From Aliiruegeria haliotis (GTDB taxonomy: Bacteria; Pseudomonadota; Alphaproteobacteria; Rhodobacterales; Rhodobacteraceae), in the NCBI RefSeq assembly GCF_003003255.1, contig NZ_PVTD01000010.1, positions 1-64,000 of the forward strand: a stretch of DNA of 64,000 bases, in the 5' to 3' direction. The translations under genes were made by a program, and so were the position numbers. Positions 1-63,863 of the stretch are shown in pieces. Each line of letters starts with the position of its first letter. Position 1 is the stretch's first letter. The notes beneath the pieces were generated by a model that saw only the letters and a list, made by a program, of their open reading frames with translations, searched no databases and was not told the DNA's origin.

Positions 1-29
1 TCTTCGGGCTTCTCTCGTTTCCCAGCCAT
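1..29 (-). CDS. IS3-family transposase OrfA, N-terminal fragment
   Basis: Only the first nine codons lie in the window (MAGKREKPE); the rest continues beyond the left edge. A strong ribosome binding site (GGAGG, 37-41 on the complement) sits 7 bases before the ATG, so this is a real gene start. The peptide matches from memory the usual opening of one group of IS3-family OrfA proteins, the small helix-turn-helix subunit of the two-frame transposase. This is recognition of a nine-residue string only, so the family call is tentative. Confidence 0.5.
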
Positions 30-82
30 CGCTGATCCTCCAATTTGCAGGACAATCTATCCCAGTTGGTGGACCACTCTCA
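1..82 (-). mobile_element. possible end of an IS3-family insertion sequence
   Basis: If the gene at the left edge is an IS3-type orfA, the element should end a few tens of bases upstream of its start. Read on the minus strand, the DNA there begins TGAGAGTGGTCCACCAACTG (from 82 inward). It has the TG dinucleotide and the length of leader expected of an IS3-type terminal inverted repeat. The partner repeat and the target duplication are outside the window, so the boundary is a guess. Confidence 0.3.
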
Positions 83-283
83 GGGGGCTACTCCACCGCG
101 GCATCGCCGAGCCACGAGCGACTAGACGACCGCCAATTGGTTGGACATACGCATTACACCAACGTGCTCTCGAGTGGGCTGAGAAGAAGGGGCAAAGGTC
201 CCCTCGCCGCTTGAGCAAACCTGAAACACACGGTTGGAGAGGAGGGCGCGTGCCGACGAAAGAGCGTCTGCCGATGTGCTCAC
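83..283. other. non-coding gap between the IS fragment and the 397-aa gene
   Basis: No open frame with a plausible start is visible. The only structure I see is a short inverted repeat (GGGG near 191, CCCC near 202). It could be a weak terminator for the minus-strand gene that ends at 284, but no T-run follows it. Confidence 0.4.
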
Positions 284-1477
284 CTAGCCTTTCGCCGCTG
301 CGATCAAACCAGCACCTTTAAGTGATGCCCCTAGGATGTTTCGCGCGAGACGAGCCAGTTGGGCGAAGTCGATTTTAGTGCCTTCCAACTCCCTCTGCGC
401 CATCATTGCTAGAAGCACGCCTGCCACCAAACCAATCCAAACCGGTCCACCAACGATCATGCTCATCAGAGTGACAAGTCCACCACGCACACCACCGCCA
501 CAGAACTGACCAAACCGCTGCTGGCGATCGGCCCCCGATAGTTTCATGTTTTGATGAGCACGAGCCAACCCCACCAGTAGGACCGCTGCAGAGATCGGAT
601 TTGCAGCAACTGCGGAATAGACCGCGAGGCCACCCAGCATCTTCAGAAACGCCGCTTTGTCGGCCTCATCCCAGTTCAAAAGGACGGCGAGGCCCGGAAG
701 GGCCGACGTGACAAACTCTTCGAGACTAAAGGTTGCGCTATCCAGAAGCCAATCCCGGGAAATCCCCACTCTTTCTGCCACGTCCACAAGGTTGGCGAGG
801 GTATCTTGGCCAATTGAGAACAGAGGCATCCCGGCAACGGAAGACATGTCCGAAGTATAAGCCCTAAACCACCCGACAAACTCCTGAGTGAAGGTATCGT
901 CCGGAAGAGCCGCACGGACTTTCTCAAGTGAGCCGAGGAACGAATGGCCTTCATCTGTTATTCGATGCGTGACCGCCTCAAGGTTCTCTTCCAAGAACTT
1001 TGCATCCATAGCCTTCGTGTAGACATTGCTCAGGTTATTGAAGGCATCTCCTGTCCAGTTGCCAATCTCCCGAGCCAAATCTCTGTCTGCCAGGATGGCC
1101 ATTGCGTATGCCGAGCTTTTCAGGGCCGCAGCTTTTGCGCTGGCCGTACTGTCCCTGACTTTCCCGCCTACGTTGCCGAACCAATCGAAGCCGCTATTGC
1201 GGCAGACATCGCCGGAATCTTGGAAAGACATAGCCAGGTTTAATGGTGAAACCGACTGCCGTGGCGGATGGACTACTTCGTCGGCTCCGGTGGCTTGAGC
1301 GATCACCTCAAGGTACCGCATATACGCCCGCTCGTGTTCTGTGACCGGAAGGGACATGCCAACACACACCTTCTGGAAGTGCTTCTGCGCATCCGTCGTG
1401 GGCGACCGCGCCCCAAAATGGAGGTCCTGATAAAACTTAAGGTGTTTCTTGATCAGTTCCCGATCTGACGTGTCCAA
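284..1477 (-). CDS. unrecognised 397-aa protein with hydrophobic C-terminal half
   Basis: Function unknown. The first 60 residues form a helical, charged segment with the pattern GxRxPTTxAQxHFxxVCxG, then PxTxHExAY. I associate that pattern with short uncharacterised helical domains but cannot name it. The middle (residues 120-260) is soluble-looking. The C-terminal third has three alanine/glycine-rich hydrophobic stretches (about 280-305, 330-358, 375-395) that could insert in or lie on a membrane. By eye the G+C is roughly half, clearly below the rest of the window. The gene lies alone between a probable IS end and tRNA-Arg, with no partner gene. This suggests recent acquisition. Downstream and upstream gaps contain no obvious operon mate. 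Confidence 0.6.
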   Translation of the reverse strand: MDTSDRELIKKHLKFYQDLHFGARSPTTDAQKHFQKVCVGMSLPVTEHERAYMRYLEVIAQATGADEVVHPPRQSVSPLNLAMSFQDSGDVCRNSGFDWFGNVGGKVRDSTASAKAAALKSSAYAMAILADRDLAREIGNWTGDAFNNLSNVYTKAMDAKFLEENLEAVTHRITDEGHSFLGSLEKVRAALPDDTFTQEFVGWFRAYTSDMSSVAGMPLFSIGQDTLANLVDVAERVGISRDWLLDSATFSLEEFVTSALPGLAVLLNWDEADKAAFLKMLGGLAVYSAVAANPISAAVLLVGLARAHQNMKLSGADRQQRFGQFCGGGVRGGLVTLMSMIVGGPVWIGLVAGVLLAMMAQRELEGTKIDFAQLARLARNILGASLKGAGLIAAAKG

Positions 1478-1605
1478 CTAAGCCAACATGGATCTACTCT
1501 TTTGCTTTCGTTGTAAAAAACTTACGTCGAGACCTGCCGATTCCGCTAGGCCAAAGAAGGCGAAACCCAAAAGTAGGAAGGTAGCCAAAAGCGAGTCAAA
1601 AACAC

Positions 1606-1640
1606 AAAAAGGCTCGGCCGTTTCCGGCTAAGCCTTTGTT
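1606..1640 (-). terminator. intrinsic terminator of tRNA-Arg
   Basis: Stem AAAGGCT (1608-1614) pairs with AGCCTTT (1631-1637) and GCCG (1617-1620) with CGGC (1625-1628) around a TTTC loop, with a 2x2 internal loop. Read on the minus strand it is followed by a T-rich tract, as expected just downstream of the tRNA gene. Confidence 0.7.
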
Positions 1641-1644
1641 TTAT

Positions 1645-1721
1645 TGGCGCGCTGGGGAGGATTCGAACCCCCGACCCCTTGATTCGTAGTCAAGTACTCT
1701 ATCCAACTGAGCTACCAGCGC
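1645..1721 (-). tRNA. tRNA-Arg(ACG)
   Basis: A complete 77-nt cloverleaf reads on the minus strand. The acceptor arm GCGCTGG pairs with CCAGCGC, the anticodon loop CTACGAA gives anticodon ACG, the T loop GGTTCGAATCC is canonical, and the 3' CCA is encoded at 1645-1647. The ACG anticodon is read as ICG after deamination and decodes CGU/CGC/CGA. tRNA-Arg genes are frequent integrase targets. The accessory-looking DNA (IS fragment and lower-G+C gene) lies exactly on the 3' side of this gene. No second copy of the tRNA 3' end is visible in the window. Confidence 0.95.
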
Positions 1722-1778
1722 GTGGAGCGTTCATCTACCGGCGGTCGCCGGCGGATGCAAGAGCCAATCTCCGGAAAT

Positions 1779-3185
1779 TCACACTTCCTCCGCATCGGCG
1801 AGGTTCACGGCCTTTGGCAGCGAAATCGTGAAGGCCGTTCCCTCCGGACCGGTACTGGCAAGATCCAGACGCCCGCCATGGCCACGGACCAGATCCGAGG
1901 AGATCGCCAGTCCGAGACCCGAGCCGCCCTTTCGGGTGCCCCCCTGAAACGGCTGGAACAGGTATTCCTGCGCTTTTGGCGGCAGCCCCGGCCCTGTGTC
2001 GGCGACCGTGATGGTCCAGCCCTCGTCGTTTTCTTCCGCCGAGACACAGATCTCCCCTTCCTGCCCGCTGGCAACAATCGCCTGCCTTGCATTGCGCACC
2101 AGGTTCGAGATCACTCTATAGAGCTGCTCCGGGTCGGCTCGCAGCGACATGCCGGCAGGGACGTCCTCGCCGAAGCTGATATCGTCGTTCGCGGTTGCAA
2201 GGCGTTCGCTTTCGACGACATCGCTGATCAGCGGGGCCAGCTGGACGTGCTGCAAACGCGGCGCGGGCTCCTCGGCCTTTCCGAAGGCAAGGGTCGATTC
2301 GCAAAGGGATACCGCGCGCGAGATGGAGTTGACCAGCTTCGGAGCTGCCCGCTGGACGGTCGGATCCTGGCTCGTCTCCATCCGGTCCGCAAAGAGCTGT
2401 GCTGTCGTCAGGATGTTCCTCAGGTCATGGCTGATCTTGGCCACGGCGCCCCCCAGTTGCGCAAGGCGTTCCTTTTGGCGCAGCGCCCCGGTCAGGTCCG
2501 TTTGCATGCTCTGCAACGCTTCCTCGGCCTCGCGCAACTCGGTGACGCTTGCCTCTGGCATGATGATGCGCCGTCCATCTTCCGGCGCCGCCGCATAGCT
2601 TTGCATCGCAGACACCAGATGGCGGATCGGCGCCACAAGGAACCCGCGCACGGTCAAGAACAGGAGCGACGCCGTGACCGCTGAGATCACCGCGGAAAGG
2701 AGCAGGATGCGAATGCCGTAGTCGACCATCGCCGTCCGCATGTCCTCCGACGTCATTGTGACCTCGATCAACAGCCCGGCCTCACGGACCGGCTCACCAA
2801 TGACACGAATAACTTGCGGGTCGGGATCGAACAGGCAGGCCAACGCGTCGCGGATCAACTCCCACGGACTTGGGTCGCGCAGATCGAAGGTCGCGTGTAT
2901 CGGTGCGGGGATGGGTGAGGACAGAACCAGCTGCCGCATCTCGTCGCGACGCAACACCACGTTCATGACCTCGGCATTCTCCAGAAGCTCCGATTCCAGT
3001 TCCTCGTCGATCATGTCCTCTGCGGCGAGCAGCGCGAGCGACGCAATCTGTGCCCGCTCAAGGCGTGACAGCAGGTAGTCTTCTCGGAAGCGCGCGATCG
3101 AGGGCACGAAGATCAGGACCTCCGCCAGCATGACGAAAGCAACCGTCAGCATCAGGAACCGGCCGGAGAGAGAGTTGAGGAACAT
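1779..3185 (-). CDS. membrane sensor histidine kinase, orphan
   Basis: A 468-residue two-component sensor kinase of the inner membrane. Two transmembrane helices (about 10-30 and 158-180) flank a periplasmic domain of some 125 residues. A HAMP-like linker and coiled stretch follow (182-245), then the dimerisation/phosphoacceptor site KISHDLRN with His253. The ATPase domain has an N box around Asn361/Asn365, G1 DTGPG (396-400) and G2 GSGLGL (421-426). All catalytic motifs are intact. No response regulator gene is adjacent. It is the last gene of a minus-strand unit with a MerA-like flavoprotein (16 bases upstream) and a TVP38 protein. The signal it senses is unknown; I infer redox or metal stress from the neighbours only. 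Confidence 0.85.
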   Translation of the reverse strand: MFLNSLSGRFLMLTVAFVMLAEVLIFVPSIARFREDYLLSRLERAQIASLALLAAEDMIDEELESELLENAEVMNVVLRRDEMRQLVLSSPIPAPIHATFDLRDPSPWELIRDALACLFDPDPQVIRVIGEPVREAGLLIEVTMTSEDMRTAMVDYGIRILLLSAVISAVTASLLFLTVRGFLVAPIRHLVSAMQSYAAAPEDGRRIIMPEASVTELREAEEALQSMQTDLTGALRQKERLAQLGGAVAKISHDLRNILTTAQLFADRMETSQDPTVQRAAPKLVNSISRAVSLCESTLAFGKAEEPAPRLQHVQLAPLISDVVESERLATANDDISFGEDVPAGMSLRADPEQLYRVISNLVRNARQAIVASGQEGEICVSAEENDEGWTITVADTGPGLPPKAQEYLFQPFQGGTRKGGSGLGLAISSDLVRGHGGRLDLASTGPEGTAFTISLPKAVNLADAEEV

Positions 3186-3200
3186 TCTGTTTTCGGTGCC

Positions 3201-4616
3201 TTACGGGATGCGTCTCTGGATGAAGCCAACGAATTTCTTGACCCAAGGACTATCAAACAGCCGCGGCGAGAAATAGGCCCCAGCGGCCTGCTTGTTCACT
3301 TCGCCCAGCGTTGGATAGGGCAATACGGTCCCAGCGACGGCGGACATTTTCAGCTTGTTGGCCATGACCAGCGCCCAGAGACCGATCATTTCGCCCGCCT
3401 GACTGCCGACGATCGACACGCCAACCGGTCGCCCTTTCACGACCATGACCTTGATCAGCCCGGTTGTCCGCCCCTCGGCGATGGCGCGGTCGTTCTCGGC
3501 ATAGGGAAAGCGGACAACCTCCAGCCGGTCGCCATGGGTCGCGCGGGCCTCGGCCTCCGTCAGCCCGATCTGCGATAGCTCGGGGTCGGTGTAGGTTGCG
3601 TGTGGGATGTGGTCGGTTCTGGTGCGCGCGGGCAGTCCAAAAAGCATGGACCGTATGATCACACCGGCATGGTAGCCGGCCACATGCGTGAACTGCGCGC
3701 CGCCGACAACATCACCGATGGCGTGGACCCGGCGGTTGCTCGTGCGCAGGTTTGCATCGACCTTGATACCACGTCGATCGACGTCGATCCCGGCTGCTTC
3801 CGCATTCAGGCGCTCCACGTTGGGGACGCGCCCGACTGCGACCAGCAGATGGCTGCCGGAAATCGGACCGGCGGAGGTCTCCACAACAACGCCGTTCGGT
3901 CGCTGCCGAACCCCCTCAGCGGCGCAGGTCTCGCGAATGTCGACGCCTTCCTCGCGCAGCCGTTGCAGGACGACCGCTCGGATCTCCGGGTCCTCGGCGC
4001 CAAGGGCTTCCATCGCCTCGACGACAGTCACCCGGCAACCGAGCCGCCGGTGTGCCTGCGCCATCTCCAGTCCGATCGGTCCACCGCCGATGACGATGAG
4101 GTGCTCGGGAGCATCACGGAGATCGAAGATGGTCTCGTTTGTCCAGAAAGGCACTTCCGAGAGGCCGTCGATAGGCGGTACGAACGGGGACGACCCCGTG
4201 GCAATGACAAACCGTCGGGCGGATATGGTGGTGTCGCCGGCCTCCACCTCGGTTTCGGAAACAAAGCTGCCGTATTCGCGAAGAACCGTCACCCCAAGGC
4301 CCTCGAAGCGTTCCTGACTGTCCACCGGCTCAATGGTCTCGATCGCCCGGCGAACATGGTCCTTGGCGGCAGTATAGCTGATCTCCGGATCGACGGGCGT
4401 CACGCCGAATGGGCGCCCCTCCCGCATTGCCTGCGCAGCCTTGCCGGCCGCCAGCAGTGCCTTGGACGGGACGCAGCCGTAGTTCAGGCAGTCGCCTCCC
4501 ATCCTGTGACCTTCCAGAAGCACGACCTGCGCCCCCATCTGGCTGGCACCAGCGGCCACGGAGAGCCCACCCGAGCCGGCGCCGATCACGCAAATGTCGG
4601 TCTTGATCCGCTTCAT
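3201..4616 (-). CDS. FAD-dependent pyridine nucleotide-disulfide oxidoreductase, MerA-like
   Basis: A 471-residue cytoplasmic flavoprotein of the lipoamide dehydrogenase/mercuric reductase family. The N-terminal FAD site GAGSGG (12-17) and the redox-active disulfide GDCLNYGCVPSK (Cys43, Cys48) are present. The NAD(P) site GGGPIGLEMA lies near the middle and the C-terminal dimerisation domain is complete. The usual catalytic base His of the C-terminal HPTxxE motif is replaced: the sequence is PYPTLGE, with Tyr434. Lipoamide and glutathione reductases need that His; mercuric reductases and MerA-like proteins do without it, so a thiol substrate is unlikely. The stop of the TVP38 gene lies 2 bases upstream of this start, so the two are co-transcribed. 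In other bacteria the two are found as one fused protein. The true electron acceptor is not known. Confidence 0.85.
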   Translation of the reverse strand: MKRIKTDICVIGAGSGGLSVAAGASQMGAQVVLLEGHRMGGDCLNYGCVPSKALLAAGKAAQAMREGRPFGVTPVDPEISYTAAKDHVRRAIETIEPVDSQERFEGLGVTVLREYGSFVSETEVEAGDTTISARRFVIATGSSPFVPPIDGLSEVPFWTNETIFDLRDAPEHLIVIGGGPIGLEMAQAHRRLGCRVTVVEAMEALGAEDPEIRAVVLQRLREEGVDIRETCAAEGVRQRPNGVVVETSAGPISGSHLLVAVGRVPNVERLNAEAAGIDVDRRGIKVDANLRTSNRRVHAIGDVVGGAQFTHVAGYHAGVIIRSMLFGLPARTRTDHIPHATYTDPELSQIGLTEAEARATHGDRLEVVRFPYAENDRAIAEGRTTGLIKVMVVKGRPVGVSIVGSQAGEMIGLWALVMANKLKMSAVAGTVLPYPTLGEVNKQAAGAYFSPRLFDSPWVKKFVGFIQRRIP

Positions 4617-4617
4617 C

Positions 4618-5349
4618 TCAGATATCCCGCGATGGACGAAGGGCCTTTACCAGCATCGGCAGCGCGGCAAGTGCGCATAGACCGAGGATTGGCAGGAGGA
4701 CAAACGGTTCGAAGATGATCCCGAGGTCGGGTTGCTCTCCGGCTGCAAAGACCTCCCCCAGGCCGGCACCAACAGAGGTGTAGACAAGCGCGCCGGGCAT
4801 GATGCCAAAGAACGTGGAGACCAGAAAACGCGGAAGCGACACGCCAACGAGGGCCGGAAGGAGGTTTGCAACAAAGAACGGAACGATGGGCACGAGCCGG
4901 ATGAGGAACAGCATCTCCCACTGGTTGGCGTCGATCCCGTTCTTGATCTGGCGGATGCGCCCCTGCGAGGCGTCCATCCGCGCCGCGAGACGCTCTCCGA
5001 GGCCCCAGCGGGCCGCGAGGAAGATCACCGCCGCGCCGAGGGTGGCGCCCACGATGTTGAAGAACACGCCCGGGAACGTTCCGAAAAGGAACCCGCCCGT
5101 CAACGTGGCGGCAGTGGCGCCGGGCAGGCTGAAACCGACAATGGCGACATAGACGGCGAGGAAGACCACGAGCGTGCCGAGATAGTGGGCATCCCGAAAG
5201 GCCAGAAGCGCCTCGCGATTCGCGGCGAGCGACTCGAAACTCAGAACATCGCCCAGTGTCATCGCTCCCACGACCGCAACCGCCCCGATGAGGGCCAGAG
5301 GCAGGTAGCGCCACGCGCCGGAAGATGGCTGGTCGGTCATGTCTGTCAT
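4618..5349 (-). CDS. TVP38/TMEM64 family inner-membrane protein
   Basis: A polytopic membrane protein of the DedA-like (VTT/SNARE-associated) superfamily, about 243 residues. The family signature is visible: a hydrophobic segment with FSLPGATAATLTGGFLFG, then a long amphipathic loop, then LIRLVPIVPFFVANLLPAL followed by FFGIMPGALVYTSVGAGLG. Five to six membrane spans are expected. I chose the ATG at 5349 because AAGGG lies 8 bases upstream; a longer frame opens at 5379 but has no binding site. It is the first gene of the unit with the MerA-like flavoprotein and the kinase, and is divergent from rpmH. Family members are proposed lipid scramblases or transporters; the role here is unknown. Confidence 0.85.
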   Translation of the reverse strand: MTDMTDQPSSGAWRYLPLALIGAVAVVGAMTLGDVLSFESLAANREALLAFRDAHYLGTLVVFLAVYVAIVGFSLPGATAATLTGGFLFGTFPGVFFNIVGATLGAAVIFLAARWGLGERLAARMDASQGRIRQIKNGIDANQWEMLFLIRLVPIVPFFVANLLPALVGVSLPRFLVSTFFGIMPGALVYTSVGAGLGEVFAAGEQPDLGIIFEPFVLLPILGLCALAALPMLVKALRPSRDI

Positions 5350-5543
5350 ATTGCTGGCCCTTGACGTGCGTTCATGCAAGGAGCATGCGTCTTGTTCGCC
5401 GAACGCGACAGGGGGATCACGCTGCGTTGATCACGCGGGGCCAATATCGTGAGAATCGCGCCTCCGACGGGGATCCTTGTTACAAGGCGGGGCGCAAAGC
5501 CTCCCATCGGTGCGGAATGTTGCAGGATTCCACCGCGAGTGAA

Positions 5544-5572
5544 TTGACTTGCCCCGAAGATCGGCTTAAGGG
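5544..5572 (+). promoter_or_regulatory. possible promoter of rpmH-rnpA-yidD
   Basis: TTGACT (5544-5549) is a good -35 box. At a 17-base spacing lies TAAGGG (5567-5572), a weak -10 match. It is about 80 bases upstream of rpmH in the 300-base gap that separates it from the divergent TVP38 gene. The rest of that gap shows no other gene. Confidence 0.35.
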
Positions 5573-5649
5573 GCGTGCTTCGAGATATCAGAGCCTTCGA
5601 ATCCATCGCCGGGTTTGGGCCGAACAAGTACAAATACGGAGACGGAGCG

Positions 5650-5784
5650 ATGAAACGCACCTATCAGCCTTCCAACCTGGTTCGCAAGCGCCGCCACGGC
5701 TTCCGTGCGCGCATGGCCACCAAGGCCGGCCGCAAGATCCTGAACGCCCGCCGCGCCCGCGGTCGGAAGTCGCTCAGCGCATAA
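5650..5784 (+). CDS. rpmH: 50S ribosomal protein L34
   Basis: A 44-residue, very basic ribosomal protein with the family hallmark [20 protein letters not shown] and the terminal [19 protein letters not shown]34 binds 23S rRNA in the large subunit. The start is the ATG at 5650 (GGAG 4 bases upstream). It heads the conserved rpmH-rnpA-yidD cluster; rnpA begins 14 bases after its stop. Confidence 0.98.
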
Positions 5785-5798
5785 GGCCGGGTGGGCCG

Positions 5799-6158
5799 AT
5801 GCTGGCCACCCTGACCAGACGCGCCGACTTTCTGGCGGCCTCCAGAGCGGGGCGTGCCGGAACCAGCGGATTCCTGTTGCAAGCGCGCAAGCGCAAGGAC
5901 ACCGAAGCCGATCCGACCTTGGTCCGGGTCGGCTTTACCTGTTCGAGGAAGGTCGGAAACGCGGTTGCCCGCAATCGTGCCAAGCGTCGGTTGCGGGAGA
6001 TTGCCCGTGCCGTCCTGTCCACCGAGGGTCGTCCCGGTTGGGACTATGTTCTTGTCGGGCGAGCGAATGTAACAGCGGAACGTCCCTACGACGATCTGGT
6101 TCAAGACCTGCGCGAGGCGGTGGATCGGGTCCACAAGCCCCGCCCACGGAAACCATGA
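5799..6158 (+). CDS. rnpA: ribonuclease P protein component
   Basis: A 119-residue basic protein that binds the RNase P RNA and helps mature tRNA 5' ends. The RNase P protein signature is clear: [20 protein letters not shown] followed by RRLREIAR. The ATG at 5799 gives the normal family length; the same frame is open further upstream into the rpmH region but those codons overlap rpmH and are not used. Its TGA overlaps the ATG of yidD (ATGA). Confidence 0.97.
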
Positions 6159-6412
6159 GCCCGGTCGCCTGGGTTTTTTCGCTGCCGATCCGGGCGTATC
6201 GCCTGATCTTCAGCCCCTGGGTCGGTTTCAACTGTCGCTATCAACCCACCTGCTCGGCCTACGCACTCGAAGCGCTTCGCAAGCACGGTGCCGTGCGCGG
6301 CGGGTGGATCGCGGCCAGACGCATTGCGCGCTGCAATCCTTGGGGTGGGTGCGGCTACGACCCGGTTCCCGGAACCGACCCCGGACACGACAGGACAGAC
6401 CCGGGCCATTGA
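6155..6412 (+). CDS. yidD: membrane protein insertion efficiency factor YidD
   Basis: An 85-residue small membrane-associated protein of the YidD family, encoded with rnpA and yidC in most bacteria. It carries the family core [25 protein letters not shown] as recognisable motifs (Cys-rich NCRY, PTCS and YA) and the [13 protein letters not shown] end. It is thought to support YidC-dependent insertion. The start codon overlaps the rnpA stop. Unlike the common order, yidC does not follow at once: ttcA and an EAL gene lie between. Confidence 0.95.
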
Positions 6413-6487
6413 CGCTACATTGGAAAAAACGCGACACCGTGGGACACGCCCGTTGGTCCCGAACGGTGATCTCACCCAGGAGCGCCC

Positions 6488-7327
6488 ATGCTGGACGACC
6501 TCGACGACATTCATCCGCTGTTCCACGGCGCCCCCTCGACCACGGAGTTCAAGAAACTTCGCAAGCGCATTGTGCGATACGCCCGGGAGGCGATCGAGCA
6601 GTACGGAATGATCGAACGCGACGCGCGCTGGCTGGTCTGCCTGTCGGGCGGCAAGGACAGCTACACCCTGCTCGCGGCCCTGTACGAGCTGAAGTGGCGG
6701 GGACTGCTGCCGGTTGACCTGCTGGCCTGCAACCTCGATCAGGGCCAACCCGGATTTCCGGCCACGGTCCTGCCCGAGTTCCTCGAACGCATGGGCGTGC
6801 CTCACCGGATCGAGTACCAGGACACCTACTCGATTGTCATGGACAAGGTCCCGCAGGGCCGGACATTCTGCGCCCTGTGTTCCCGTCTCCGGCGTGGCAA
6901 CCTGTATCGAATCGCACGGGAAGAAGGGTGTTCGGCGGTGGTCCTGGGGCACCACAGAGACGACATTCTCGAAACCTTCTTCATGAACCTCTTTCACGGC
7001 GGGCGGCTTGCGACGATGCCGCCGAAACTGGTGAACGAGGAGGGCGACCTGTTCGTCTACCGCCCCCTTGCCCATGTCGCTGAAGCCGACTGCGAACGCT
7101 TTGCCACGGCGATGAACTATCCGATCATCCCCTGCGATCTCTGCGGGTCGCAAGACGGCCTCCAAAGGCAGCAAGTCAAACAGATCCTCGACGGGTGGGA
7201 AGCCAACAGCCCGGGCCGGCGGCAGGTCATGTTCCGGGCACTGATGAATGCACGGCCGTCACATCTTCTTGACCCGAACCTGTTCGATTTCGCCGGGCTT
7301 GCGCGGGACCCTGCACAAAACGAGTAA
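6488..7327 (+). CDS. ttcA: tRNA 2-thiocytidine biosynthesis protein TtcA
   Basis: A 279-residue ATP-dependent tRNA thiolase that makes 2-thiocytidine at position 32 of certain tRNAs, using a [4Fe-4S] cluster. The PP-loop SGGKDS (53-58) that activates the cytidine with ATP is intact. Both family CxxC pairs are present: Cys128/Cys131 (FCALCSR) and Cys216/Cys219 (CDLCGS). The ATG at 6488 has AGGAG 6 bases upstream. It sits between yidD and yidC, a place where no tRNA-thiolation gene is needed. This is therefore positional only; it may be transcribed with the upstream cluster (75-base gap). Confidence 0.93.
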
Positions 7328-39730: not shown

Positions 39731-43867
<4,137 letters not shown>

Positions 43868-44055
43868 GTGGTCTGTCACCTTTCGTCTGTCGCGTTTGCA
43901 CATGCCGTCGGGCATCGGCTGTGCGCCGCTCACGAATGAAGGGGGTCAGGTTCCATTCCCGCCGCCGTCCCACCGGCAGCTCCCGAACCTTTGAACCGCG
44001 CCTTGGAGAAACCCCCGTAAGATCCCTCGCAGAGGGGTCTCTCCAAGACAGGTTC

Positions 44056-44085
44056 GGCTGGAGCCGGTTTTCACCGGCTCCAGCC
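44056..44085 (-). promoter_or_regulatory. strong hairpin (attenuator or processing site) between rplL and rpoB
   Basis: A perfect 12-bp inverted repeat, GGCTGGAGCCGG (44056-44067) and CCGGCTCCAGCC (44074-44085), with a 6-base loop. It stands 24 bases after the rplL stop and has no T-run on the transcribed side. In other bacteria the rplL-rpoB gap holds a partial terminator and an RNase III site that set the ratio of ribosomal protein to polymerase; I infer the same here. Confidence 0.65.
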
Positions 44086-44109
44086 TCACAAATCGTGTCG
44101 TCGCTCGAA

Positions 44110-44490
44110 TTACTTGAGCTCGACTTCGGCGCCAGCTGCTTCCAGCTTGCCCTTGATTTCTTCGGCTTCGTCCTTGGAGCACTGCTCCTTGACGGCCTTG
44201 CCACCAGCTTCAACGAGCTCTTTGGCTTCTTTCAGGCCCAGGCCGGTGATGGCGCGGACTTCCTTGATGACGTTGATCTTCTTGTCGCCAGCGGCTTTGA
44301 GGATCACGTCAAACTCGGTCTTCTCTTCTTCAGCGGCGCCACCGGCGTCGCCAGCAGGACCGGCCATCATGACAGCGCCGCCAGCAGCGGGCTCGATGCC
44401 GTATTCGTCCTTGAGGATGGTTTTCAGTTCCTGGGCTTCCAGGAGGGTCAGGCCAACGATTTGTTCAGCCAGTGCTTTCAGATCAGCCAT
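44110..44490 (-). CDS. rplL: 50S ribosomal protein L7/L12
   Basis: A 126-residue acidic ribosomal stalk protein. The N-terminal dimerisation helix ([20 protein letters not shown]) is followed by the flexible Ala/Gly-rich hinge and the C-terminal domain with [20 protein letters not shown] and [12 protein letters not shown], which recruits translation factors. It forms the stalk with L10, encoded 67 bases upstream. Length is usual. Confidence 0.98.
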
Positions 44491-44556
44491 TGTACTGTTT
44501 CCGTTCTTTCAGATGTGTTCCAACGCGAAGTTCTTGTCTCCACGAAGGTCTCGCGA

Positions 44557-45075
44557 TCAGGCGGCCTCGCCGCGCTCCTCGATGGTGCTGAGAATGCTCG
44601 CGACGTTCGAAGCAGGTGCGCCAATGGCCCCGGCAATGTTGGATGCAGGCGCGCCGATGCAGCCGGCGATGGAAGCAATGAGCTCCTCGCGCGACGGCAT
44701 TTTCGACACAGCCTGGACACCAGCACGGTCCAGGGCGTTCTCACCCATTGCACCACCAAGGATCTGGAACTTGTCGTTTTCCTTGGCGAAGTCCTCGGCC
44801 ACCTTGGCTGCTGCCACGGGGTCCTCGGAAAAGGTCAGAACGGTCATGCCCGTCAGGTAATCGCCGATGCTTTCGCAGGGCTTTCCGTCGAGGGCGATCT
44901 TGGCGAGCCTGTTCTTGGCGACGCGCACGGACGCTTCGGCGCCGCGGGCGCGAGCACGAAGATCCTGCATCTCGGCAACCGTGAGACCTTCGTAGTGGGC
45001 AACCACAACGACGCCAGAGCTTTCAAAGATCTGGCCGAGTTCGTCGACCAATTTCTCTTTCTGGGCTCTATCCAC
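44557..45075 (-). CDS. rplJ: 50S ribosomal protein L10
   Basis: A 172-residue ribosomal protein that anchors the L7/L12 stalk. It starts [20 protein letters not shown] and has [15 protein letters not shown], followed by [14 protein letters not shown]. The C-terminal helix ([20 protein letters not shown]) binds L7/L12 dimers. I chose GTG at 45075: GGAG lies 8 bases upstream and the alternative upstream Met adds 14 codons not found in homologues. L10-L7/L12 normally represses its own mRNA by binding the leader just upstream. Confidence 0.96.
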
Positions 45076-45339
45076 AGTTTTACTCCAAGTATGGGAGGCT
45101 TTCGCCCCCCGGCTCAAGTTTGCCAGCCGAAGCCGGCGTTCAGGTCCGTTTTACGGGGCTGCGCCAATCCGCCCGAGGAAATGCCCCCGGTCAATCTTGT
45201 CGTATCCCGTCTCAGGCAGGAATTATGGCCAACGAGCCACCCACCGTCTTGGACGAAACGCAAATCAGCGCACGACGAATCGCACGCTGACAAGCGAGTG
45301 GTCTAATTAGTTGCTAACGGAACGTTTGCCAAGCCGAAA
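45076..45339 (-). promoter_or_regulatory. rplJ leader region, possible L10 autoregulatory RNA
   Basis: The 264 bases between the upstream gene and rplJ contain no ORF of note. In many bacteria this position carries a folded leader bound by the L10-L7/L12 complex. I can see a run of short complementary segments near 45107-45150 (GCCGGCTTCGGCTGGC on the minus strand) but have not folded it. The usual upstream rplK-rplA pair is absent. Confidence 0.4.
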
Positions 45340-46785
45340 TCACACACGGTTCGTGGAGCGCAGAGGTTGCGGCCGACGGCGGCGCGATCTTGCGAGTCCC
45401 AACAGGCCCATCCCCGCGAGCAGGAAAAAAGCGGTCTGCGGCACTGGTACGGCGGCGACCCGGTGGCTGTGTGCAGGCAGATTTGCCGTCGTCAACACGG
45501 TTTGCTCGGCACCGCCACGCTGTCCGACGCTGTAGGTCTGCCCGCCGACGAAGGTTCCAGCGCCGATGGGGGTCCGCCCGCGCAGATCCGGTAGCGCAAA
45601 AGTGGTCTCGCAATCGCCGCCATAGGCGCAGCCAAGCAGGGAAAACAGCGCGGTGTTGCTGGCGATGGACAGGATTTGCCCGTTTGCGAACGCTGTTCCC
45701 CGTGGCGCGAAGTTCCCTGCAAAAAGTGACACTTCCCCAAGGACGGGCTCACCGCTCCCGAAGATTCCGTCCGTGGGGTACAGACCAACCATGTTGATCA
45801 CCCAGTTCAGCGACAACTCCTCCTGCACCAGTGACACTGGCCTGCCGCCGCCCGTCCCACTGCCGGTTTCCCCGGGGATCCCATGGCTGTGATGCGGCAT
45901 CTCGGCGGTGCTGAGCGACACCTGCGACTGCCCGCGCTCGGTGCCGAGCACCCGGTTTGCGAGCCCCGCCCCACGGCCTGTTCCGACAATCACGCGCCCT
46001 GCGGTGTCGGGGAGGTCGAAATCGGTCCGACAATCGCCGCCATAGGCACACCCGAGCAGGGAAAACAGGGCCTGGTTGGAGTTGATGCTCAAGGTCTGAC
46101 CCTGCGCATTCAGAAAGCTCCGACCGGATGGGGAGTAGACGCCAGCATTGAACTGAATTTCGGCGATTGCGGGATCGAAACCTCCGATCACGTTCGAACC
46201 GGGGGCCGCCAAACTGCTGGAAGGAAAGATCCCGGTGACAGCGATCTCATGATTGATTGCCAACGTCGGCATCTTGACCGAGAAAGGCTGACCGCCGCCA
46301 ACCGATGTGGTTGTTCTGCCCGAAGAAAAGTCATGCGTGTGGGCGGGAAGGTTGGCGTCGAGAAGCGTTCGTTGAACTGCACCGGCAGTCTGGCCCAGGC
46401 GCGTTGCACCTCCCACTCCGACCATCGCTCGCCCGCGCAGATCGGGAAGTCCGAATGTTGCCCGGCCATCGCCGCCATAGGTCGTTCCGAGCACCGAAAA
46501 AAGTGCCTGGTTGCTGGATACATCCAGCAACTGTCCCTCCGCGCGCGGCCCGTAGCCAGGGCCAGAAACTCCGGCATGCCAGCGGACTCGGCCGATTTGC
46601 CCGAACGCCCCGGTGGTCTGAACATAGGGCGTCATGGCAAGCCATGGTTGCATCACGCCAAAGGCCTGTGACTGACCGGCGATGTCAGTATCCACGGTCG
46701 CGGCACCGGAAGGGGCGGCTCCAATCGAGCCCCCGATCACAACCAGTGCGGCAAGTATCCATGAAGAACCCGATTTATGCAGCAT
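45340..46785 (-). CDS. exported protein with three phage tail-collar modules and a C-terminal sorting signal
   Basis: A 481-residue exported protein. A signal peptide (about 1-30, ending GAAPSGAA) precedes three related modules of about 60 residues (near 66-125, 210-270, 353-410). Each has SNxALFSxLGxxYGGDxxTxFxLPDxxGR, the signature of the phage tail Collar domain, and is followed by a His motif (PAHTHD, PHHSHG, PAHSHR). The C terminus is VPVPQ, one hydrophobic helix, then RSRRRR, like PEP-CTERM/VPLPA-CTERM sorting signals. It looks like a surface-anchored or exosortase-type substrate. The ATG at 46785 is preferred: AAGG lies 6 bases upstream. The gene lies between the rplJ leader and a transglycosylase gene, without phage genes around it. 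Confidence 0.82.
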   Translation of the reverse strand: MLHKSGSSWILAALVVIGGSIGAAPSGAATVDTDIAGQSQAFGVMQPWLAMTPYVQTTGAFGQIGRVRWHAGVSGPGYGPRAEGQLLDVSSNQALFSVLGTTYGGDGRATFGLPDLRGRAMVGVGGATRLGQTAGAVQRTLLDANLPAHTHDFSSGRTTTSVGGGQPFSVKMPTLAINHEIAVTGIFPSSSLAAPGSNVIGGFDPAIAEIQFNAGVYSPSGRSFLNAQGQTLSINSNQALFSLLGCAYGGDCRTDFDLPDTAGRVIVGTGRGAGLANRVLGTERGQSQVSLSTAEMPHHSHGIPGETGSGTGGGRPVSLVQEELSLNWVINMVGLYPTDGIFGSGEPVLGEVSLFAGNFAPRGTAFANGQILSIASNTALFSLLGCAYGGDCETTFALPDLRGRTPIGAGTFVGGQTYSVGQRGGAEQTVLTTANLPAHSHRVAAVPVPQTAFFLLAGMGLLGLARSRRRRPQPLRSTNRV

Positions 46786-47025
46786 ATCCAACCTTTTAAA
46801 AATGTCTGCTCTTCGCTAGCACGGTTTGTGCGCCATTGCACCAGGAGAGTCGCGCAGTCTCAGGATTGTCGTTCCGGGCAATTGCCCGCCGCAATCAAAG
46901 CAGGGTGTACGCTCCTTGATCCGAGGTCGGCGATCCGTCCCGCCGCCTTGCCCCATCGCCGGAACCGGACGGCATTCGCGCAGGCGGCCGGAGATTGCGA
47001 AGAATACGGGATATCGGCCGGACCG

Positions 47026-48264
47026 TCAGCGGAGCCGCTTCAGAAGCGCCAGCGATGGCTGCCCCGTGACCGGCAGGCCAACGCTCTTCTGATAGGCGGA
47101 GATCGCGGCCTCCGTTCCTGACCCGATCACGCCATCGGGTGTGCCCGCGTCAAACCCATTGGCGTTGAGCCTGCGCTGAAGCTCCTTGCGATCATCGATG
47201 GTCATGCCCTGCGCATCCGGCGGGAAGCCGGCCTGAATCGGGGGCTTGCCGGCGATGCGATCGGCCAGATGCCCAACACCCAGCGCATAGCTCTCCGCGT
47301 TGTTGTAGCGCAGGATCACGCTGAAATTCTTGTAGACGATGAAGGCCGGTCCACGCGTGCCTTGCGGGATCAGGATCGACGAGGATCCGTGGTTCGGCAC
47401 AGGCCGCCCGTTTGTGTCCGCAACGCCCATCGCGGCCCAGCTCGCCGCGCTTCGGGAGTTGCCGCGGCCGGCGAGCCCGGTGCTGAACCCGGACGGCAGG
47501 CGCACCTCCATACCCCAGGGCTGGCCACGCACCCACCCGTTGCGTTGCAGGTACGCAGCCGTGGAAGCCAGCGCGTCCGACGGATCGGAGGACCAGATAT
47601 CCCGCCGCCCGTCGCCCGTGAAGTCCACGGCGAAGGCCTGGAAGGAGGTCGGGATGAACTGGGTGTGTCCCATCGCGCCGGCCCAGCTGCCGACCATCCG
47701 CTCCGGTGTGATATCCCCGCGCTGCAGGATGCGGAGCGCGGCCAGAAGCTGCTTTTCCATGAATGCGCCGCGACGGCCGTCATAGGCCAGCGTGCTCAGC
47801 GCCGAGACGATTGGGATATCCCCCATCCGGGTGCCGTACTTGCTCTCAAGTCCCCAGATTGCGGTCACGATCTCCTTGTCGACCCCGTAGCGGCCCTCGA
47901 TCGCGGACAAGGTGGAATTGTACTTGCGCAGCGCCGACTTTCCCATGCTGACCCGCTCGTCGGAGGCCGCGATCGCCAGGTAATCCTCCAGGGTCCGCTT
48001 GAACTCCGTCTGGTTGCGGTCCCGCTCGATCACACCAGGGAGGTAACCCACATCGCGGAATGCCCGATCGATGGTGGCTTGCGAGATACCGCTGGCCGCC
48101 GCGCGGCCCTTGAAACTGGCCACCCAGGCATCGAAAGCAGGGTTCGGAACCGCCTTCATCCTGGTCGCGGTGGCCTGCGCATTCGCACCGCCGCCGCCAC
48201 CGGAACAGGCCGTCAGACCAGTTGCCGCCAAGCCCGCCACGAAAATCCGCCGGTTTACCTGCAT
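47026..48264 (-). CDS. lipoprotein lytic murein transglycosylase, MltB family
   Basis: A 412-residue protein. The lipoprotein signal ends LTAC (Cys20) and is followed by a Gly-rich linker. The catalytic domain has IWGLESKYGTRMGD with the catalytic Glu and GAMGHTQFIPTSFQAFAVDF as the active-site loop. The C-terminal domain (about 340-412) is a peptidoglycan-binding repeat with DRKELQRRLNANGFDAGTPD. It would cleave peptidoglycan at the inner face of the outer membrane. It is a distant paralogue of the protein encoded at 24299-25480. There is a 240-base gap before the collar gene with no other gene. Confidence 0.9.
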   Translation of the reverse strand: MQVNRRIFVAGLAATGLTACSGGGGGANAQATATRMKAVPNPAFDAWVASFKGRAAASGISQATIDRAFRDVGYLPGVIERDRNQTEFKRTLEDYLAIAASDERVSMGKSALRKYNSTLSAIEGRYGVDKEIVTAIWGLESKYGTRMGDIPIVSALSTLAYDGRRGAFMEKQLLAALRILQRGDITPERMVGSWAGAMGHTQFIPTSFQAFAVDFTGDGRRDIWSSDPSDALASTAAYLQRNGWVRGQPWGMEVRLPSGFSTGLAGRGNSRSAASWAAMGVADTNGRPVPNHGSSSILIPQGTRGPAFIVYKNFSVILRYNNAESYALGVGHLADRIAGKPPIQAGFPPDAQGMTIDDRKELQRRLNANGFDAGTPDGVIGSGTEAAISAYQKSVGLPVTGQPSLALLKRLR

Positions 48265-48352
48265 GTCGAAATCCCTGCGCTCGTTATGCCTGTCCCCTGC
48301 ATAGCGGAGGCCCCGGAAAGCTCAAAGCACTACAGCACTCCGGGGCGCGGTT

Positions 48353-49018
48353 TCATGCCGGCAACGGCTCGATCAGGTCGGGGCCCGCGGCTCGGTTCGA
48401 ATTAACCGCCGGATCGACCCGGTGCCAGGCCAGCGCACCGGGCTGCGCTGGCACCATCAGGCGCGCGGCCCCCTTGCCTGCCTCTCCCAGCCAGAGGGAC
48501 CAATCATCGGGTGCAAGGATAACCGGCATGCGGTGGTGGATTTCCTCCAGGCCATTGCCTGCCTCGCAGGTGACGATCGCCACGGTGGTGACCGTTTCGC
48601 CATCGCGTTCCCAATCCTGCCACAGCCCCCCCATCACCACGGGAAGCCCCTCGGAGCCGTGAATGAACCACGGGAGCTTCTTGCCGTCCGTGGTGCGGGT
48701 CCACTCATAGTAGCCATCTGCGGCCACCAGACACCGTCGCCGACGGATCGCGGCACGGAACGCGGGCTTTTCCGCCACGGTTTCGGCGCGGGCATTGATC
48801 AGGAGAGGGCCGTCGTTCGGTGCCTTGTACCAATGGGGAATGAACCCCCACCGCATGGCGCGCAAGCGCCGGGTGCCGTCCTCCGACACCGCAACCGAAA
48901 GGGGGGTCGTCGGGCACACGTTGTAGCGCGCGCCCGCCGGCAGGTCATTCGACGGCACTGCATCGAACAACCGTGCCATCGCATCGACCGGCATCGTGTT
49001 CACAAGCCGTCCACACAT
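48353..49018 (-). CDS. SOS response-associated peptidase (SRAP/HMCES/YedK)
   Basis: A 221-residue SRAP protein. It starts MCGRLVNT, so Cys2 becomes the N-terminal catalytic residue that links to abasic sites in single-stranded DNA. The other conserved residues are Asn and Arg in NARAET, Glu in DGYYEWTR and His in HHRMPVIL. These proteins shield abasic sites from cleavage during replication. The GTG/ATG choice is fixed by the required MCGR start. It stands alone between the lipoprotein transglycosylase and the polyamine-binding protein gene. I see no SOS box in front of it. Confidence 0.93.
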   Translation of the reverse strand: MCGRLVNTMPVDAMARLFDAVPSNDLPAGARYNVCPTTPLSVAVSEDGTRRLRAMRWGFIPHWYKAPNDGPLLINARAETVAEKPAFRAAIRRRRCLVAADGYYEWTRTTDGKKLPWFIHGSEGLPVVMGGLWQDWERDGETVTTVAIVTCEAGNGLEEIHHRMPVILAPDDWSLWLGEAGKGAARLMVPAQPGALAWHRVDPAVNSNRAAGPDLIEPLPA

Positions 49019-63143: not shown

Positions 63144-63821
63144 TCAGGACAAATGGGCGGGTCGAGTCCCGGTATGGGTCTGCGCAAAGGAGCTGTCAGC
63201 GAAGTCCAGCCCCGCGACCACCGAATTGGCATCTTCGGCAGAGAGCACTGGGTAGCGCGTATTCGGCTCTGCCCACATCGCCTCTTCCACGGTTGCCGGC
63301 ATGGCGATCTCGGCGGCTTCACAAATCGCTAGCGCGTTTCCTTCGATGAAGATCACCTGGTCCTGCTCGAAGCCAAGTGTGACCACGACGACGGCCTCCT
63401 CAGGAAGCACACGCCGCACACCCTGGGCTCCATCGAGCCGCATCGCCTGCACGGGTGCAAAGGGATCGCCGAGCAACTCCTCTGCAAGGTCGCTTTCGAT
63501 CACCAGCGCCTGACCTGCCAGCGTCAGCAGGGGGCGGCGGTTTCCGATCATTCCGGCGGGAACGGACAGCAGCGGACGCACCGAAGCACGCGCCTTCTGG
63601 TTCATCGGATAGAGGCGGCGCGTCACACCCTTCACAACCTGCACACCGTCGTCGAAGGTCAGGACCTCGTCGCCGACGCAAAGCGCCTCGACCGGCCGCC
63701 AGCCGGTCGTGGTTGCGACGAGGGTGCCAGCAACAAGCCCACATTCCGGCGCCAGAGGCTGCGGTCCGGTGTCTTCACGGCTGTCACGCATCCCTACGGC
63801 CTCGGCTATCCAGTCCAGCAT
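63144..63821 (-). CDS. Hint (Hedgehog/intein) domain protein
   Basis: A 225-residue protein. From about residue 27 it has a Hint_2-type domain: CGLVAGTLVATTTGWRPVEA and LCVGDEVLTFDDG, with the N-terminal Cys of the self-cleavage module. Similar proteins abound in Rhodobacterales, often on secreted proteins, and none of these has a proven function. No signal peptide is visible, the C-terminal splice residues cannot be judged, and no toxin domain follows. It is probably a stand-alone Hint protein. A CtrA-like site lies 43 bases upstream. Confidence 0.8.
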   Translation of the reverse strand: MLDWIAEAVGMRDSREDTGPQPLAPECGLVAGTLVATTTGWRPVEALCVGDEVLTFDDGVQVVKGVTRRLYPMNQKARASVRPLLSVPAGMIGNRRPLLTLAGQALVIESDLAEELLGDPFAPVQAMRLDGAQGVRRVLPEEAVVVVTLGFEQDQVIFIEGNALAICEAAEIAMPATVEEAMWAEPNTRYPVLSAEDANSVVAGLDFADSSFAQTHTGTRPAHLS

Positions 63822-63863
63822 CGGTTCGTTCCCTGTCCCAACCGGGCTTTCCCGGCTTCATGG

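Follow-up and report, generated by a model that had tools for sequence, protein, structure and literature searches.

The Locus and Its Architecture

The window analyzed here, a stretch of 64,000 nucleotides at the start of contig NZ_PVTD01000010.1 of Aliiruegeria haliotis, carries on its minus strand a gene (45340–46785) for a protein of 481 aa that will be referred to as the collar protein. The frame starts with an ATG at 46785 and ends with a stop codon at 45340–45342; upstream, an AAAAGG resembling a ribosome site is recognizable by eye. Three matches to the Collar family (PF07484) were found in the translation, with 84.1, 62.2 and 57.2 bits, all above the curated cut-off of 24 (E 1.2e-55 for the protein as a whole, hmmscan). 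These are the only collar matches in the genome according to a PF07484 search. The N terminus, MLHKSGSSWILAALVVIGGSIGAAPSGA followed by AT, is, judged by eye, organized like a Sec signal peptide, with predicted cleavage after SGA at residue 28 (residues 1–28, 46702–46785). At the equivalent place, two orthologs offer AWA and AQA, also by eye. The three-collar frame with a predicted signal peptide, VPVPQ, helix and RRRR that had been claimed in a preliminary description of this DNA is confirmed.

Downstream of the signal peptide, and likewise on the minus strand, three modules follow one another. A segment termed closing strand (residues 38–61, 46603–46674) precedes the first collar match (46426–46542, 62.2 bits, model positions 18–56 of 57) and the first HxH motif (HTH, residues 149–151, 46333–46341). 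A second closing strand (residues 163–188, 46222–46299) is followed by collar match 2 (45988–46158, 57.2 bits) and the motif HSH (residues 299–301, 45883–45891), and a third (residues 312–337, 45775–45852) by collar match 3 (45568–45738, 84.1 bits) and another HSH (residues 439–441, 45463–45471). The chain ends with a CTERM-type tail composed of VPVP, a hydrophobic helix and RRRR (residues 446–471, 45373–45450). A foreign base composition of the gene was considered and rejected, as its GC content of 0.631 compares with 0.626 for the window.

Genomic Neighbourhood

The identified neighbours encode a transglycosylase (SLT_2), an SRAP protein and a solute-binding protein (hmmscan), while frames for rplJ, rplL and rpoB were recognized by eye; there are no phage genes among them. 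The preliminary description had placed the gene beside the rplJ leader and next to several transglycosylase genes, and had regarded the missing rplK-rplA as an oddity. A search of 43500–48500 against Rfam (E≤1) did not turn up any leader of a ribosomal protein but a Rhodo-rpoB RNA (43897–43989, minus strand, 65.6 bits) that overlaps the start region of rpoB, and of the transglycosylase genes a single one was identified. The absence of rplK-rplA is not odd either, because rplA lies on another contig (C4) together with frames that look like rplK and nusG by eye, and because 7 of 8 congeners have a transglycosylase gene, not rplA, 0.4–2.2 kb upstream of rplJ. In none of the eight does the corresponding stretch hold the collar gene. 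Instead, the space that separates rplJ from the transglycosylase gene, a slot corresponding to 45118–47025 in the window and to L225–L231 in the congeners, is mostly occupied by other frames, which vary from congener to congener, e. g. frames that resemble an L,D-transpeptidase or an FMN reductase by eye. Any collar match at all was found in one of these congeners, as a single module elsewhere in its genome. The ribosomal neighbourhood, which had been taken as meaningful, is incidental: the slot varies in content, both orthologs of the collar protein have other surroundings, and the collar gene is a patchy guest. Elsewhere in the window, a frame on the minus strand (63147–63857) contains ECGLVAGTLVATTTGWRPVEALC, which resembles a Hint-type domain.

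Orthologs and Distribution

In a sample of 394 genomes of the family, a collar match occurs in 60, and three genomes, including the present one, have three collars in one frame. The other two encode full-length orthologs, Q (L092) and R (L093), from two other genera with 41 and 43% identity to the collar protein. Compared by eye, their genomic surroundings differ from those of the collar protein, and both have signal peptides by the same judgement. Their tails, AVPLPAPALLLG...RRRR and AVPLPSALPALLAG...RRRR, follow the pattern VPLP, helix and RRRR. In a sample of 390 genomes of the order, at least five matches reached E≤1e-40, and among those listed only the ones in this genome and in that of Q are full-length. 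Family and order counts are lower bounds, since the first pass scored at most 4 (order) or at most 16 (family) candidates per genome. Of the 132 distinct collar frames in the fetched genome loci, the three fused proteins alone bear a CTERM-like tail. Modules 1, 2 and 3 pair best in matching order across the three orthologs and, to judge from these pairings, the fused three-module form is therefore probably older than their split.

Outside these genomes, tblastn matched 65 plasmid records, six of them covering at least 80% of the query. Annotated plasmid records among the matches listed are mostly termed "tail fiber protein" and often comprise two or three genes. Scans of viral contigs with ortholog R and an RTX-type relative (see below) as queries found no relative.

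When the 116 collar matches of the family draw were grouped by contig and strand with gaps of less than 1600 bases, 68 clusters emerged, comprising 38 single, 12 double and 18 triple ones and none that is larger. Thirteen of the triples consist of three frames and one of a single frame plus a fused pair; three are fused in one frame, and one is of the RTX type with module 1 in another frame. A fused two-collar frame beside a single-collar gene at 2092–3162 (minus strand) of L100 (G368:C17) stands midway between the triads and the fused proteins. A further 84 loci, taken from named contigs of bacteria and from viral contigs, yielded 85 clusters: 70 single, a count inflated by the many short or truncated loci in this set, 4 double, 8 of three genes, and one each of six genes, nine genes and four collars in a chain. 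The six single-collar genes stand in tandem at 3974–7247 (plus strand) of L138, and the nine at 1–5453 (plus strand) of L136, where they reach both contig ends; both loci come from a viral collection. The four-collar chain is encoded by a phage-like frame on a viral contig (L143, 2792–7324, plus strand), and a frame of another viral contig (L167) has two collars in one chain. We read this predominance of threes and their multiples six and nine as a probable sign that each particle requires three different modules. L143 does not fit this reading, and three is therefore not a ceiling everywhere.

Circular Permutation and the Segment after HxH

Free-standing single-module relatives follow the order collar, HxH and closing strand, the latter with the majority sequence xxQPxLxxNYIIALxGIFPSRN. 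A profile HMM of this strand was built from 165 non-redundant C-terminal tails (181 before removal of redundancy) and matched the collar protein at residues 22–61 (20.7 bits), 155–189 (40.6 bits) and 309–338 (12.7 bits), i. e. ahead of collar 1 and between the modules, with no match after collar 3. The corresponding scores are 14.7, 30.4 and 18.8 bits for R, 12.8, 18.5 and 9.4 bits for Q, and 13.2, 11.9 and 26.7 bits for L113, a three-collar relative of the RTX type. The best of 3000 shuffled sequences scored 9.6 bits, which all four N-terminal matches (20.7, 14.7, 12.8 and 13.2 bits for the collar protein, R, Q and L113) exceed and the third strand of Q does not reach. The HMM also matches within collars, for instance at residues 86–112 of Q with 17.5 bits; beyond the third closing strand, it yields merely 3.2 (Q) and 5.3 bits (R) within collar 3 and nothing in the collar protein. 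Because of the N-terminal matches and the lack of a closing strand after the third collar, the modules can be described as circularly permuted at the sequence level: the strand that closes the single-module relatives comes first.

A profile of the fused proteins aligns at three triad loci (L234, L235 and L236) across the stop codon between neighbouring genes, where it joins the closing strand of one gene to the collar of the next. In the solved chain 8KEC, N-terminal positions 25–50 of the family profile align to residues 353–377 near the chain end, with 1.9 bits that are meaningless alone. The RTX-type relative shows the permutation although HxH is missing from it by eye, and the layout therefore does not depend on a metal. 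Descent from a fused ancestor shared with this relative was considered but not adopted, as the best module pairings with the collar protein, Q and R disagree.

The fused proteins also differ from their relatives in the distance between HxH and the closing motif G-x-(F/Y)-P. Among the 196 distinct single-module proteins that carry this closing motif, HxH is present in 143 and missing from 53. In the former, the distance has a median of 72 residues (5–95% range 66–97, minimum 38), as opposed to 32–38 residues in all six intervals of the three fused proteins. By this measure, most of the segment that would form the fibre head is absent from the fused proteins, "head" being the name for the tip segment of gp12.

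Fold and Putative Metal Site

The sequence profile of the three fused proteins matched the cyanophage fibre 8KEC (E 8.6e-8) and T4 gp12 (1OCY, E 0.0031), and no other solved chain at E≤10. An AlphaFold model of the whole chain reached a mean pLDDT of 47.9 and is confident at residues 351–400 only, within collar 3 (pLDDT 88–96). Modules 1 and 2 remained mostly below 50 because the aligned sequences were concentrated on module 3; the alignments were made without orthologs Q and R, and other sets of rows were also unevenly spread over the modules. A single module in free-standing order (residues 60–191) was modelled with a pLDDT of 72.2 and a pTM of 0.53. Foldseek aligned this model to 8KEC (E 1.5e-4), 1OCY (3.8e-2) and gp37 (2XGF, 0.15), while VIA-align gave Z values of 9.8 for 1OCY over 77 residues (339–527), 8.6 for 8KEC (157–379) and 8.4 for 2XGF (811–1026). 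These values are modest but can be trusted, since the sequence matches point to the same proteins.

The gp12-type elements collar, HxH and closing strand are present in the collar protein, and all six histidines of the HxH motifs are invariant in an alignment of the three orthologs. According to the available text of the respective sources, the collar of the T4 gp12 homotrimer spans residues 342–397 and its metal sits on the threefold axis, bound by His445 and His447 of each of the three chains (PMC3004832), and a similar six-histidine site of R-pyocin fibres holds iron (PMC6116203).

The C-Terminal Tail and XrtD

The C terminus of the collar protein, AAVPVPQTAFFLLAGMGLLGLARSRRRR, is the best of 16 matches to PF07589 (PEP-CTERM) in the genome, with 26.1 bits against a cut-off of 20.7; hmmscan of the collar protein gave 20.5 bits, just below this value. 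The more specific VPLPA-CTERM model (TIGR03370) scored 15.6 bits on the tail, 25.1 bits on Q and thus less than its cut-off of 25.35 in both cases, and did not match R. The Arg run is followed by 10 residues in the collar protein compared to 3 and 6 in the orthologs, and 4–12 residues separate the third HxH from the sorting motif in the fused proteins.

A sorting enzyme, the lack of which was named in the preliminary description as an argument against sorting, is present. The sole exosortase match of the genome at E≤10 is XrtD, which is specific for VPLPA-CTERM (TIGR04152, 675.6 bits, cut-off 400). Its gene is surrounded by rmlA, which scores above its cut-off, and by genes for an export protein, a TPR protein, an ATPase and a chain-length determinant that are relatives of PEP-CTERM families, each below the respective cut-off. 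Adjoining xrtD, a rhomboid-family protease is encoded (L004, 42–731, minus strand) whose likeness to rhombosortases is weak (30 bits, cut-off 84). Eight other places in the genome match VPLPA-CTERM above the cut-off, among 15 matches listed at E≤10, and VPVPA, which is close to the tail of the collar protein, can be read in five CTERM candidates. Of 15 genomes tested, nine have XrtD above the cut-off, namely all three with the collar protein and 6 of the 12 without it.

Sorting by an exosortase-like system, which the preliminary description proposed as the way to a putative surface display, therefore stands up well in sequence comparison: it is backed by XrtD, by the eight further VPLPA-CTERM matches and by two VPLP-tailed orthologs from genomes with XrtD, whereas the bit scores of the tail itself lie close to the curated cut-offs or under them. 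Hence, the collar protein can be regarded as a putative XrtD substrate. A common promoter motif of the CTERM genes was looked for in the upstream stretches of 13 candidates, including the collar gene with 168 bases and leaving out L008, and had to be discarded: the most widespread 8-mer occurred in 8 of the 13 stretches, which lies within the maxima of 6–9 that 20 shuffles gave.

Proposed Function and Alternatives

On balance, we favour the interpretation that the collar protein is a domesticated phage-fibre tip, namely a headless pseudo-trimer made of a single chain that leaves the cytoplasm via Sec, is cleaved by XrtD and remains in the envelope or the exopolysaccharide. Upon export, the N-terminal signal peptide would be removed, and the VPVP-helix-Arg tail would anchor the protein to the inner membrane up to its cleavage at the motif by XrtD, in line with the model of Haft et al. 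(available text of PMC1569441). The mature protein could then move on to the outer envelope or the exopolysaccharide. Its three collar-HxH modules may fold round a pseudo-threefold axis in the same manner as three chains of gp12, whereby the three HxH motifs would contribute six histidines to one buried metal. As the long segment after HxH is mostly missing, a compact stapled platform would be expected instead of a full receptor-binding fibre. Our best guess by analogy is that this platform holds polysaccharide to the cells. An exosortase mutant of Nostoc is described as defective in adhering to its own polysaccharide (PMC12188702, available text), and overexpression of a PEP-CTERM protein in an Aquincola mutant as leading to more bound polymer and restored flocs (PMC9850573, available text).

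Unlikely, yet the first alternative to be weighed, is an XrtD substrate that forms a homotrimeric surface fibre, in which three collar beads are stacked and each has its own metal site. The homotrimeric state of T4 gp12 (PMC3004832, available text), the four collars in the chain of L143 and the permuted repeat of closing strand, collar and HxH, which is complete alone, would all be compatible with such a fibre. It accounts poorly for clusters that end at three modules in the family, be they separate or fused, for larger arrays elsewhere that count six and nine genes and thus multiples of three, and for the shortness of the segments between the modules.

Less probable still is that the tail serves as a mere membrane anchor, so that the collar protein would remain fixed to the inner membrane on its periplasmic side without any action of XrtD. 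This would suit the borderline or sub-threshold scores of the tail and the 10 residues past the Arg run. Yet, VPxP and RRRR are invariant across three orthologs of approximately 42% identity, the tail is the top PF07589 match of the genome, and XrtD accompanies the collar protein in all three genomes in which it occurs. A secreted adhesin that binds receptors on other cells as the head of a tail fibre does appears very improbable: collar modules are indeed known from receptor-binding fibres, but the segment between HxH and G-x-(F/Y)-P is cut down to 32–38 residues in the fused proteins as opposed to a median of 72 in the 143 free-standing relatives. We give hardly any credence to a prophage tail fibre leftover that gained signal peptide and hydrophobic tail by chance, even though tail families of PHROGs are matched by the modules (phrog_9116, E 6.8e-42) and 288 phage records are hit by tblastn, none of them over at least 80% of the protein. 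The genome has no other collar match, and an identical arrangement, with three modules between signal peptide and CTERM tail, recurs in two other genera in other surroundings.

The interpretation as a single-chain, XrtD-sorted fibre tip may be extended beyond the collar protein, and we do so tentatively, with somewhat more doubt than confidence. A permuted single chain that closes round one six-histidine metal site and has shed the receptor head could have been adopted as a surface platform by two or more export routes, among them XrtD/CTERM and RTX-type; the three-gene clusters of bacteria and the arrays of six and nine genes would then be its heterotrimeric form. If true, a phage homotrimer would have been turned into a single-chain protein, each third of which is free to diverge, and exosortase biology would gain a substrate with a predictable fold and an assayable metal site. 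Moreover, a testable explanation is suggested for the "tail fiber protein" gene triads of bacteria, i. e. that they encode heterotrimers. A literature search that included few subscription journals found nothing joining "PEP-CTERM" or "MdpB" with "tail collar".

Comparison with Known Systems

With VPLPA-CTERM proteins, the substrates of XrtD, the collar protein shares the signal peptide, the VPxP-helix-Arg tail and a genome in which xrtD adjoins exopolysaccharide genes. It differs from them in a tail that scores below the TIGR03370 cut-off and in its cargo, a phage-fibre module; the other CTERM candidates of the genome are open frames of approximately 95–340 aa without a collar match.

The receptor-binding domain of T4 gp12 (1OCY) likewise combines collar, HxH and last strand. 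However, gp12 distributes them over three separate chains, whereas the collar protein unites three permuted modules in one chain and adds a sorting tail. In addition, 80 residues extend from His447 of gp12 to its last residue 527, in contrast to the short segment after HxH in the collar protein.

Further relatives are the single-module, MdpB-like "tail fiber proteins", whose genes often occur in threes. They have the same module and closing strand and, in 143 of 196 distinct proteins, also HxH, but carry one module per chain in free-standing order, as opposed to three modules with the closing strand first.

The three-collar RTX proteins L113 (G722:C1 near 670576) and L094 (G212:C71) resemble the collar protein in having three modules and a similar permutation, which is indicated by the N-terminal match of 13.2 bits in L113 and by eye in L094. 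In L094, module 1 is out of frame with modules 2 and 3. Both differ in that a long C-terminal part, which in L113 contains calcium-binding repeats of the RTX type, replaces the CTERM tail, and HxH is absent by eye. Taken together, the parts are known and their combination is new, and it is the permuted, headless, three-in-one fibre tip that constitutes the more interesting content of this locus.
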